This document shows positions 3,520 through 8,945 of a stretch of 64,000 nt of DNA, piece after piece (the first letter of the stretch is position 1; each line of letters opens with the position of its first letter). Location of the stretch: the NCBI GenBank assembly GCA_956465555.1, contig OY101115.1:3162001-3226000 (forward strand), written 5' to 3'. The stretch is from Nitzschia sp. pyKryTriq1 (Eukaryota; Bacillariophyta; Bacillariophyceae; Bacillariales; Bacillariaceae). A program made the position numbers and the translations under genes. The notes beneath the pieces were generated by a model that saw only the letters and a list, made by a program, of their open reading frames with translations, made no database searches and was not told the origin of the DNA.

Positions 3520-4431
3520 CTATCTGTACTCCTGGACAACTTCGTCCACTTCCCCCGGAAACCCAATCGTCCAAGATTCAGTTTCTTTATACTCATTCTT
3601 GGAGAGTTCAAGTATTTGTAATAACTCGTCGTCATCTCGCGAAGAAATCTTTTGAGATAGCTCCAAAGCCTTTTGGAGTTCCTCGTTTTCATCGGGAGAG
3701 TGCTCAAATTCTTTCTGAGAAAGTTCCAGCGCTCTTTGTAGATCAACGTCAATATTGGATTGACTGTCTAAAAGGGACAGGGAGAGCGCTCGCTGCATTA
3801 TCTCTTGCTCCTCTTTATCTTCTTTTTGCGCTTGAAGTAACGACATGGACACAGCTCGCTTCAAGAGCTTTTCATCTTTCTTCTGATCCTTAAGTACTTC
3901 TTGCTGGTCCTTTCGACTCTCTTCGATCGCCTTGTCGGTAGCAATGACTTCACATGGTGTTGGGGCGTCATCACCGTAGTCTAGTGCAACTTGAGCGAGA
4001 TTTGAAATTTTGGGTGGTTTGGGGAGAGCTGGTATCGTTTCTGGTGCATTTTTGACTATCACTTTCGTATCCCTTGGAGCATCTGGCTCGTAAAAGACTA
4101 TCCCGGAATTTGCCTTGACATTAAAAGATCCCCTTCCTCGATTAGTGATGAATTGCATTTGTCGTTTCTGCAGGAGCGCTTCGACAGAATTGCGGAGAAC
4201 TGGCCCATCCGGACTGTGTGCCCCACTCCCCGTAATGACGAGGACCCAGACATCTTTCATCGCGCAGTCCCTTTGCTTTCGTTGACGGGATACAACCTGG
4301 TCCAGAAAGGAAGTCAGAGCAATGATTGCCTGCGATTTACGGTAGCCATGCAAGTCGATTGTGGCTGTCACAGTAGTGGGACTCGAGGTGGACTTTGCTG
4401 TTGGGCCGGTAGCATTTCTTTTCTTTGCCAT
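3520..4431 (-). CDS. Smr-domain protein with tandem ubiquitin-interacting motifs
   Basis: Single exon, 303 aa. The N-terminal third is an Smr domain: TIDLHGY (D26, H28) opens it, VITGSGAHS follows at ~65-73, then a GSFNVKANSG strand near 101-110. Smr domains are hydrolase or RNA-nuclease modules. In yeast Cue2 and human N4BP2 an Smr domain cleaves mRNA at collided ribosomes and is recruited by ubiquitin-binding CUE domains. Here residues ~187-282 hold four good UIMs (cores RAVSMS, RALSLS, RALELS, KALELS), a weaker fifth (QILELS) and an earlier degenerate one (KAIEES ~167-172). The domain assignments are read from motifs; a ribosome-quality-control role is inference. I see no CUE domain. Confidence 0.85.
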   Translation of the reverse strand: MAKKRNATGPTAKSTSSPTTVTATIDLHGYRKSQAIIALTSFLDQVVSRQRKQRDCAMKDVWVLVITGSGAHSPDGPVLRNSVEALLQKRQMQFITNRGRGSFNVKANSGIVFYEPDAPRDTKVIVKNAPETIPALPKPPKISNLAQVALDYGDDAPTPCEVIATDKAIEESRKDQQEVLKDQKKDEKLLKRAVSMSLLQAQKEDKEEQEIMQRALSLSLLDSQSNIDVDLQRALELSQKEFEHSPDENEELQKALELSQKISSRDDDELLQILELSKNEYKETESWTIGFPGEVDEVVQEYR

Positions 4432-4941: not shown

Positions 4942-7900
4942 TTAGGAGAGGAAATATCTTGATCCACTTCCTGTTGTGACTACTTCACCTCCGGCGACGT
5001 TTCCTTTCGTGATGGGGCTCGTGGTGACACGATCCCCGTCAGAGAAGGCCTTTGAACCAGAGATCAAGCCGGTAATAGAACCGTCCCGGTTCTTCTTCCA
5101 ACGCGACATGGTGGGAACGCCACGAGGTGCCTGTTTCTTCGGGATAGGACGCGATGGTCTCGGTGCGGTTGGTTCAGGTAAACCTTCATCAGCTTCTCCG
5201 AAGCCAAGACCGAATAGAGAAAATGTGGCCCGGGGCTTGGCTGACTCCACTGCTTCCCGCGCTGCTGCTGCTTCGCGTTCTTTTCGTTGTCTGGTCAAAG
5301 TGATGGTTGCTCCTGGCTTCGCGCTGGACATATCTTGGATGGCAGCAGCAATATTGGCTATCTTCGTCGCGGGTTCAGCGCTCAAAAAGTAGCGGCTACC
5401 CGATGAGGTGGATACCACTGATCCAGTTTCAAGGAGTCCATTGGTGATTGGAGACGTCTCAACGAACTCTCCGTCGGTGAAATTCGGAGATCCAAAAATG
5501 CGTCCAGATACACCGCCTGCATATGAGAAGGATTCCATTTGTTAGTTTTGATGATACGAACAAAAAGTCAATAGCGCACACAACGTACCATCGCGTCTCT
5601 CTTTCCAAGCTCTAATCTCAGGAACTCCACGTGGGGGTTTCGTGACCTTCGGACTAGCCGAAGCTTTGCTTGGCGCTGTTGGCTTCACGCTAGCGGCCTT
5701 ACGTTTCTGTTCCGCTGCTGCTACTTGCGCCGCCTTCTTTTCCTCGGCAAGTCTCTGTCTCTCCTCTGCGGCAGCAGCTTGGGCGGCTTTCCTTTCTTCG
5801 GCGAGAGCGGCTTGAGCAGCTTTTCTTTCTTCGGCGAGAGCGGCTTGCTCCGCCTTCTTGGATTCGGCTGCCAAACGTCTCTCTTCCGCAGCAGCAGCCT
5901 GTGCAGCCTTCTGCTCTTCGGCTGCTTGGCGTCTTTCTTCCGCTAGAGCTGCCTGCTGCGCTTTTCGCTCTTCGGCTACTCTGCGCCTTTCTCCAGCCGC
6001 AGCAGCCATCGCGGCTTTCTGTTCCTCAGCAGCCCTGCGTTTTTCTTCCATCGCTGCCGCTTGAGCTGCTTTTCTTTCCTCAGCAGCTCGACGTGCCGCC
6101 GCTGCGGTATCCACCTTCGGAGCTACGGATTTGGATGTCGCAGTTGTTGGTGCAGCCACCTTTGGTAAATTGAGCTCAGGTGTAGGAAATGTCGGTGCAG
6201 AGAAGCCAAAGGAAAATCCACCTTGTTGACCCAAGAAATATCTGTAGACATTTTTTAATCGACATGTTAGAGAAACGGCTCAAAAATAAGCGTGACAGAA
6301 GTGAAAGTTTCACATACCTTGAGCCTGAACTTGTTTTGACGACACTCCCGGAAATAGCACCGCTTGGAACGGGGGAGGTGGTAACAGTTTCTCCTTCTTT
6401 GAAGCTCGGCGACCCAGTGATTTTACCGGTGATTGAGCCATCATCGTTTTGCTTCCAGTTTCCGATTGTCGGAACGCCCGGTGGAGCTTGTGCCTTCACC
6501 GGTGCATTCCGAGCTGGTTGGGGCGCTGGTGGTTCGTCCGAATCGCTCTTCCCCAGATTGAAAAGATCTCCCAAGGAAATAGTGCGTCGGGGGGTAGCCG
6601 ACTGTAAAGACTTCTCGGCTGCTTTGGCTTGTTTCTGTTTGATGGCTTCAAGCTTTGCGCGAGATTCTGCCGCAGCAGCTTCTTTCTGGCGCCTTGCTTC
6701 TTCCGCCGCTGCCTCTTGCTCAGCCTTTTTCCTGGCGATCTCTTCTTCTCGCTGCCTCTTTGCCTCCTCAGCTGCAGCCTTCTTCTGTTCCAGCTCCTCG
6801 TCGCGTTGTCGTTTGGCTTCCGCTGCCTTCACAGCAGCTTCCTTCGTCCTTGCAGCCACGGCTCTGGCCTCCTCTCTGGCCTTGTCTTGTTGTGCCGATG
6901 TCGCCGCCTTTCCAGACATTTTCTCCCCTTGGTTTTGTTCGGCTGCCTTCTCCCGTTCCTTGCGAGTCTCTTGTGTTGCCTTGAATACCGCTTGTTGGAT
7001 TTCAAAGATCTCCGATTGCGGGCTCTTTTCCTTTGGTTTCACCTCCTTTGCTGGTTCGGACGGAGGCTCTAACTTGGGTAAATTCATTTTGGGAACCTCC
7101 AACTTCGGTACTTCAATCTTCGGCAAGTCAATTTTCGGGGGTTCAACTTTTGGAACTTCGACCTTTGGTAGCTGGACTTTGGGAACTTCAAGCTTGGGGG
7201 CGGAAATCTTTGGGATCTCCGGAACAGATGGGGGCGCTTTGGGTGTACTAGGCTTGCCATCGATCATTGGAGGTGGAAGTTTTGGTGGTTGTGGCGTAGT
7301 AGGTTTCTTCGGACCTATGATAGAGTTGACTTTCTCCTCAACACTCTCCACAGCTCTCTTTGGAATGGAAACAACTTCGTCTACAGCCTTCTCAACTGCA
7401 TCTAGCGTGTCATCAACAGCATCTTCCACAGCCTTTTTAGAACTTTCGACCACGCGACCAGGCGTTGCCTTGATTTCCTCTACGACTTCTTCCGCCTTTT
7501 CGATAGTCCTCTTCTTCACTCCTTCAGCTGTTTCAATCGCTGCTTCTTTAACCTTGTTCGGAATTCGTTGAATCTCCTCAACAGTGTCTTCAACCTTATC
7601 TTTAGCTGCTTCGGCAACTTTAGAAGGAATTGCTTTGATGTCTTCTGTCGTCTCCTTAATTTTATCCTGTACACCCTTGATTGCGGCATTGATCGCCCCT
7701 TTGATTGCGGAGCCGATGGTACTTCCGATGGCCCTCGTTGTCTTTCCCAATGATCCTCTAATGATCTCCCCAACTTGACCTTCGACCGATCCACCAACGA
7801 AGCCAGATACAGCAAATACAACGGACGTTGCGAGCGTCAAGACAAGAGGTTCCATCACCATATCCAAATTTGGGAACTCGAAGATGAGCAGAGCCCCTAA

Positions 7901-8251
7901 TAGCAAGCCAAGAAAAGCACCTCCAACTCCCGAAGCTGCAACGTTTTTCTGCTCCTCCTGGGACAACTGTACTTTTGGCTTGGTCTCAACTTTCGACTCC
8001 TCGACGGAAACTTTGAGTTGTTCCATCTGGGCCTCCTCGATAGCATCTAAATCAGGTACCTTGGGTGGAGGAACTGGAACTTTGGGGCGCTCGAATTCTT
8101 GATCGGGCTCCTCTTCAGCAAAGAGGGGTCGAACCCTTGGAATGGATGATTTGCTCCAAGTTCCGGAGTACGAAACCTGTTGAGGGACTATGAATCCATC
8201 AACAACACCATGAAGGAGTTGGCTGAATGCCAGCCAAAGAGCGACCTTCAT
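4942..8251 (-). CDS. plastid-directed membrane protein with amphipathic/coiled-coil regions and three copies of a ~60-aa repeat domain
   Basis: CDS complement(join(4942..5516, 5589..6241, 6318..8251)), 1053 aa. Start at MKVALWLAF: a signal peptide ends in VVDG|FIVP, an ASAFAP-like plastid motif with Phe at +1. Two hydrophobic segments follow (~105-124, ~134-154). Next come recurring amphipathic segments (IPSKVAEAAKD, IPNKVKEAA, IPKRAVESV), a Pro-Lys-rich stretch of PK-V/I/L-xx units (~350-440) and an Ala/Glu/Lys coiled coil. A ~60-aa unit occurs three times (roughly GVPxxxxW, DGSITG, GSxxFxDG, TSPI, SGSRYFL), separated by another AEERKAAQ coiled coil. Both introns cut repeat units and restore the repeat exactly, which supports the splicing. 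I do not recognise the repeat domain. A membrane-shaping or scaffold role at the plastid is a guess. Confidence 0.8.
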
Positions 8252-8945
8252 TTTTGTTCTACTGAGGGATGGAACGCTTTCTATCGGCACACAAAATGAG
8301 AACCCGAGCACGTTACGAAGCACGCCTCAAACTATTTGGTATCAATAATCTAAGAGTGCAGTGGATAGATGATGTCGACAAGAGAGAAGTTGCAACTGCT
8401 ATTACTGTAGGTGCAAAATTCGCTTGGCGACGGAAGGGGAACAGATCGAATACTGTAGAGACGATTACTCTATCTCTGCAATCTCAGGCGAACTATGTAC
8501 AAGTTTTCATAGTCTACTGGAGACGATGAAGGTATCCGAAGGAAAGAGGTGCGTGTGGCGTGTCTTTCAACCGTCATCGAGCCAGCAAAAGATCCATTTC
8601 AAGGAAGATCGGGCGACGACGCATGATTGATTTTTTTCACGCGATGATTTGTTGTCGCTGACGTCACTGGTCTCAATCGCGCGTGCGCTTGAATGCAATG
8701 TATGACTCGGTGTGATGGCCAGACACGCTTGTTCATCCTCTTCTTGCTGTTTTTACCCGTTTTTTTTGCCTGTTGCTTTCTTTGCCTATTATTGTTGCTT
8801 GTTGTGGCCTCGCGCCCTGTCTCAACGATGGCCCATCGCATAACAAATACCAACGGACCACGTGACACGACGACTTGAGTGTCTTTGCAAATCAATCTTT
8901 GTCGCCACCTCTATCGTACACATTGAATATATTTCGCTGGAAAGG
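8252..8945. other. intergenic divergent promoter region with a CRE-like site
   Basis: No gene seen. A perfect TGACGTCA (CRE/bZIP-type) palindrome lies at 8659-8666, between the plastid repeat protein and mS33. A pyrimidine-rich tract lies at ~8730-8800. Confidence 0.5.

Follow-up and report, generated by a model that had tools for sequence, protein, structure and literature searches.

A diatom protein joining an N-terminal Smr domain to tandem ubiquitin-interacting motifs: a possible, differently built counterpart of the mRNA-cutting enzymes of collided ribosomes

Yeast Cue2 cleaves the mRNA of collided ribosomes with a C-terminal Smr domain (catalytic residues D348 and H350) that is coupled to CUE/UBA ubiquitin readers (PMC6598757), and K63-linked chains on eS7 have been proposed to be read by its first two CUE domains (PMC9841427). 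In the worm, deletion of the CUE domains of NONU-1 is reported to give the mutant phenotype (PMC9870110), and a role in no-go decay has been shown for both of these CUE-Smr proteins. Bacterial, yeast and worm Smr proteins are described as acting at ribosome collisions, and nuclease activity is described as not universal among Smr domains (PMC10897456). The CUE-Smr arrangement is found in yeast, worm and plant class C1 proteins, and in Plasmodium falciparum one study found no homologue of Cue2/NONU-1 (PMC7295572). The choice and cutting of mRNA at collided ribosomes outside yeast, animals and plants seems little studied, and the open-access literature yielded, by title, no diatom study of no-go decay or ribosome-associated quality control.

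Here we analysed a 64-kb stretch of DNA (the window), one gene of which encodes a predicted protein with an Smr domain at the N-terminus and ubiquitin-interacting motifs (UIMs) towards the C-terminus, the reverse of the order in Cue2 and the arrangement that an earlier note on this DNA had described. By analogy, the protein looks like a collided-ribosome counterpart of the yeast and animal mRNA-cutting enzymes, differently built, and we tentatively read it, with a chance that we put somewhat short of even, as an Smr endoribonuclease that ubiquitin guides to collided ribosomes and that is convergent with Cue2, NONU-1 and N4BP2. It would be a soluble enzyme whose two to four UIM helices recruit it to ubiquitinated substrates, most likely collided ribosomes in no-go decay. 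The UIMs would bind ubiquitin on ribosomal proteins and hold the ubiquitinated ribosomes, and by analogy with Cue2 and NONU-1 this hold would bring the mRNA within reach of the N-terminal Smr domain; cleavage would be supported by Asp26 and His28, the fragments would go to exonucleases, and Pelota and an Rqc2-type factor would clear the ribosomes. Such a mode would be like that of Cue2, NONU-1 and N4BP2, with the ubiquitin reader swapped and shifted to the opposite end of the nuclease. In support of this explanation, the DxH and TGxG motifs are kept, the two modules share one protein, and no CUE-Smr protein is detectable in the genome; the excess of UIM cores over shuffled sequences and the N4BP2 structure match, both given below, point the same way, as do the ubiquitin-pathway domains found at other UIM loci and the collision-rescue parts of the genome.

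Table 1. Features of the Smr-UIM gene (window positions) and the other Smr and UIM loci of the genome (genome positions, where given).
Feature	Position	Strand	Remarks
Whole coding frame	3520..4431	-	ATG at 4431 to TAG at 3520, 303 aa, intron not required
Smr domain, residues about 25-118	4078..4359	-	Pfam residues 25-91; remainder, including last strand, by eye in alignment
Asp26-Leu27-His28, DxH motif of active Smr nucleases	4348..4356	-	position from frame; role of DxH as given in PMC10897456
Thr67-Gly68-Ser69-Gly70, TGxG motif	4222..4233	-	Ser vs Arg (Cue2) and Thr (PPR-SMR), as compared in PMC12292046
Candidate UIM 1, core Ala193	3820..3879	-	core pattern only; no profile match as lone peptide
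Candidate UIM 2, core Ala215	3754..3813	-	weak, UIM_2 only, 13.1 bits
UIM 3, core Ala234	3697..3756	-	23.6 bits as peptide; 21.7 bits in genome search (window 3706-3750); above cut-off
UIM 4, core Ala255	3634..3693	-	peptide 20.7 bits UIM, 20.6 bits UIM_2; 18.6 bits in genome search (window 3652-3693); below cut-off alone
Degenerate UIM-like repeat 5, Ile273 (QILELS) replacing Ala	3580..3639	-	no profile match
MutS2	C12:940861		Smr locus
PPR-Smr	C8:808262		PPR above cut-off
Second Smr directly behind PPR array	C4:1155392		PPR above cut-off; one stop between frames, perhaps intron
CCCH-Smr	C12:980493-982589 (L021:694-2790); Smr match C12:982332	+	698-aa frame
UIM locus L010			UBX above cut-off
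UIM locus L015			UBA above cut-off
UIM locus L016			VWA above cut-off, as in Rpn10
UIM locus L017			UCH above cut-off
UIM locus L019			Josephin and UBX above cut-off
UIM locus L006			MINDY match marginally below cut-off, 25.8 vs 27
UIM locus L009	L009:1216-3051 (G000:C4:3156305 region)		GRF zinc finger above cut-off, one UIM marginally below
UIM loci L011, L014			UIM alone
UIM locus L018			sub-cut-off RING match, no UIM row

On the whole protein, the UIM (PF02809) and UIM_2 (PF23625) models score 28.8 and 28.6 bits against a cut-off of 21 each and cover two stretches each, the Ala255 repeat contributing to the UIM match above cut-off. The UIM core Ala...Ser is present in four repeats, with core alanines 22, 19 and 21 residues apart, and the fifth has Ile in place of Ala. 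The tail has four copies of the core pattern [LIVMF]xxA[LIVMF]x[LIVMFA]S, far beyond what shuffling of its 143 residues produced (of 100,000 shuffles, 98,704 held none, 1,291 one, 5 two and 0 three or more), and 0/3 shuffled tails gave a UIM match. Plain coiled coil instead of UIMs, the failure that the earlier note had anticipated, is not borne out, as the two UIM models pass, though not every repeat does. Its figure of four to six UIMs survives only in part: the array stands by the whole-protein match, while the repeats, scanned as six separate peptides of which the one at Ala168 gave no UIM match, we read as two firm UIMs (Ala234 and Ala255), a weak one (Ala215), a possible one (Ala193) and a degenerate repeat, with at most four plausible. 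The only solved relative found by sequence at E<=1 was the tandem UIMs of ataxin-3 (2klz), a weak match at E = 0.022, and no direct DNA repeats of at least 15 bases, as from a recent duplication, were found across the UIM repeats.

A six-frame search of the genome (40.65 Mb in 20 contigs) with the UIM model at E<=10 returned 13 places in 11 loci, including 2 places in the Smr-UIM gene. Among the 10 other loci, Pfam placed a further ubiquitin-pathway domain above its cut-off in 5 (Table 1); the L009 product, with its GRF zinc finger, is perhaps a ubiquitin-linked nucleic-acid protein. Counting against the collided-ribosome reading, two of the five repeats have no score, one is weak and one lies marginally below the cut-off by itself, and at the default limit of E<=0.001 the genome-wide UIM search does not list this gene, its sole listing being C5:27645.

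UIMs are also generic readers, at work in DNA repair, endocytosis and the proteasome according to PMC2951365, and tandem UIMs guide RAP80, which would suit a ubiquitin-guided Smr protein with another substrate, for example a nuclease at ubiquitinated chromatin whose Smr domain nicks DNA. DNA nicking has been described for MutS-family Smr domains, and the N-terminus of the diatom protein is, by eye, short and basic. Its DxH/TGxG type, however, is the one common to the RNA-cleaving Cue2 and PPR-SMR proteins, and bacterial, yeast and worm Smr proteins work at ribosome collisions (PMC10897456); we consider a chromatin or other substrate unlikely.

The Smr model (PF01713) matches residues 25-91 of the protein at 33.3 bits against a cut-off of 25.7, covering 54/77 profile positions, and reaches 35.1 bits at window 4159-4359 in the six-frame genome search, so that profile search places both modules named by the earlier note, Smr and UIM, above their Pfam cut-offs. 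The motifs it had read as IDLHG and TGSGAHS indeed lie in frame, as I25-D26-L-H28-Gly, T67-G-S-G and H72-S. An alignment of the five Smr domains of the genome has seven invariant columns (Asp26, Gly68, Gly70 and four more), and a profile of these five domains searched against the PDB found the Smr chains of N4BP2 best (E 0.00043) and MutS2 next, with unrelated chains from E 0.06.

DxH is described as the motif tied to cleavage, held responsible for it in SmrB, and loss of its His as a repeated theme among inactive Smr domains (PMC10897456, PMC12292046); the DxH/TGxG wording is also applied to dinoflagellate PPR-SMR proteins (PMC12787238). The residue between the glycines of TGxG has been implicated in catalysis, being Arg in Cue2, Thr in PPR-SMR proteins and Lys in bacterial MutS2 (PMC12292046). 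In Cue2, where by our reading this Arg is R402, R402A is reported to bring a modest weakening and R402K none (PMC6598757). As Ser69 stands where Cue2 has Arg402, the activity of the diatom domain may be low; with DxH intact but Ser69 in this place, it is probably, not certainly, active. The same serine, replacing the Arg, Lys or Thr of relatives (PMC12292046), together with the description of some Smr domains as lacking nuclease activity (PMC10897456), would fit a protein that binds ubiquitin at collided ribosomes and does not cut, as an adaptor or a ribosome-splitting helper comparable to Bacillus subtilis MutS2. That role we hold to be fairly improbable, given the intact DxH, whose His is the residue repeatedly lost from inactive Smr domains.

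The genome holds five Smr loci by six-frame search, and only the Smr-UIM gene among them has UIMs. The same kind of search at E<=10 gave nine CUE candidates, three above cut-off; in the PDB, the best of the nine (C3:2162298) matches the CUE domain of ASCC2 at E 0.00045. None of the nine lies at any of the five Smr loci, and no orthologue of the CUE-Smr type, which the earlier note had named as a possible competitor for the job, was found in this genome; this absence is provisional, because domains interrupted by introns can escape a six-frame search. DUF1771 is absent from the Smr-UIM protein and gave no genome match at E<=1, and neither CUE nor PPR was matched by Pfam within the protein.

The CCCH-Smr protein might do the no-go-decay job in this genome. 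Its zinc fingers are CCCH-like, matched below cut-off, and its C-terminal Smr domain, with DLH and TGTG, scores 23.5 bits by hmmscan, marginally below the cut-off, and 28.0 in the six-frame search. That it could be the no-go nuclease also counts against the favoured reading: the Smr-UIM protein would then be a side branch, acting for instance on other ubiquitinated RNA-protein complexes. A CUE-like stretch was noticed in CCCH-Smr by eye and would add to this case; the 61-aa stretch matched 0 Pfam families and, in the PDB, only three designed or engineered proteins, so the likeness is one for the eye only. CCCH-Smr has no ubiquitin-binding profile match and is not among the nine CUE candidates, whereas NONU-1 is reported to need its CUE domains to function (PMC9870110), and we give CCCH-Smr as the diatom no-go nuclease a low probability.

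The Smr-UIM frame has an in-frame stop upstream of its ATG and is uninterrupted to its TAG. In codon preference, with seven long frames of the window as reference, it ranks first among the six frames of the stretch by a modest margin (0.09 bits per codon, the remaining frames lying between -0.13 and -0.01). At E<=10, Pfam finds no family in the protein besides Smr, UIM and UIM_2, and NCBIfam adds two sub-cut-off matches, to MutS2 (E 0.014) and to an unrelated model (E 0.043). By eye, neither a signal peptide nor organelle targeting is evident, and the genome holds no second copy, the 1 match at E<=1 being the gene itself. In a chance fusion or gene-model artefact, the tail, rich in Glu, Leu, Lys, Ser and Gln, would be an acidic coiled coil, and the Smr match, confined to part of the profile, would be marginal. 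We hold this to be very improbable, since Smr and UIM both exceed curated cut-offs within one ATG-to-stop frame, shuffled tails fail the UIM tests and the frame ranks first of six in codon preference. At window 4942-8326, on the same strand (-), adjoining frames have a common repeat, by eye PPGVPTIGNWK..DGSITG..VTTSP..GSRY, as well as Ala/Lys/Glu-rich repeats, and probably belong to a single gene as its exons; the three frames scanned there had no Pfam family above its cut-off.

The host, an alga in the earlier note, is a photosynthetic diatom, as judged from 72 chlorophyll-binding matches and from silicon transporters at eight loci, seven of which score above 870 bits. Four of these loci are clustered in about 42 kb of one contig (G000:C1:275839-317295). 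Pelota exceeds its NCBIfam cut-off (263.9 vs 177.65), with a separate eRF1 also present, and NFACT_N passes its cut-off, with matches at two places to different parts of the model (G000:C7:539566 and C9:540070). The frame at C7 resembles RqcH/Rqc2, with the archaeal RqcH model below its cut-off (264.8 vs 400). Judged by these matches, predicted collision-rescue parts are present in this diatom, namely Pelota, an Rqc2-type NFACT protein and an ASCC2-like CUE protein. The ZNF598 zinc-finger family had no match in the genome, and the controls were equally without match, so no conclusion follows.

Beyond its own genome, the protein was searched for in collections of viruses, phages, plasmids and prokaryotes. 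Viral contigs were scanned twice under protein guidance, with 2 and 16 pattern stretches, and genome contigs once, with 57, and no relative was among these; a degenerate DNA pattern for TGSG.HSP.GPVL hit 0 viral and 0 prokaryote genome contigs, and tblastn against phages gave no match. Because the collections comprise viruses and prokaryotes, these results say nothing on eukaryotic orthologues. Among the open-access papers listed we found no description of a UIM array and an N-terminal Smr domain in one protein, and the passages retrieved there with 'small MutS-related' and 'ubiquitin-interacting motif' together were unrelated. A ubiquitin reader with an Smr domain is a known kind of protein, of which the present one is a variant. 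That diatoms, or the wider stramenopile group, lost or never had a CUE-Smr no-go nuclease and replaced it by Smr with tandem UIMs strikes us as doubtful, though worth stating: if it were true, evolution would have arrived at ubiquitin-guided mRNA cleavage on collided ribosomes at least twice, using unrelated readers and opposite domain orders. As a compact nuclease and reader in one chain, the protein would also make it practicable to ask whether a ubiquitin-binding module of any kind is enough to guide Smr, and whether ubiquitin binding is all that the CUE domains contribute to Cue2.

Among described UIM proteins, ataxin-3 and RAP80 likewise carry successive UIM helices, and the core-alanine spacing of the diatom protein is, by eye, near the 20 residues of ataxin-3; RAP80 differs in its longer spacing, with a linker of about 11 vs 6 residues in ataxin-3, and its long helical linker has been credited with K63 selectivity (PMC2951365). 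As the diatom spacing is shorter than that of RAP80, nothing indicates a long K63-selective helix of the RAP80 kind, and no chain preference can be claimed for the array. The catalytic partner also differs, being Smr in the diatom protein.

Among Smr proteins, the PPR-SMR type (SOT1, GUN1 and the two PPR-Smr proteins of this genome) has a similar TGxG-type loop and 'PVL...V' stretch, but the diatom protein has UIMs and no PPR repeats. Plant CID7 and class C1 (PAM2-CUE-DUF1771-SMR, as described in PMC4574140) also join Smr to a ubiquitin-binding domain in a photosynthetic eukaryote; CUE and DUF1771 stand there in place of the UIMs, and the domain order differs. Of the traits given for Smr family 2, the N4BP2 type (PMC3200294), the diatom protein has LDxH, with Ile for Leu, and TGxG; its Smr domain occupies residues 25 to about 118 of 303 rather than the C-terminus, and the adjacent DUF1771, frequent in the family and not defining, is missing. 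The two or more CUE domains that mark the CUE-Smr class are absent as well, and the catalytic Asp and His of that class are present as Asp26 and His28. Compared with Cue2 (S. cerevisiae), NONU-1 (C. elegans) and N4BP2 (human), the diatom protein has UIMs for CUE/UBA, an N-terminal instead of a C-terminal Smr domain, Ser for Arg between the glycines, and neither DUF1771 nor a kinase domain, and it has in common with all three a DxH/TGxG Smr domain and ubiquitin-binding modules united in one protein.
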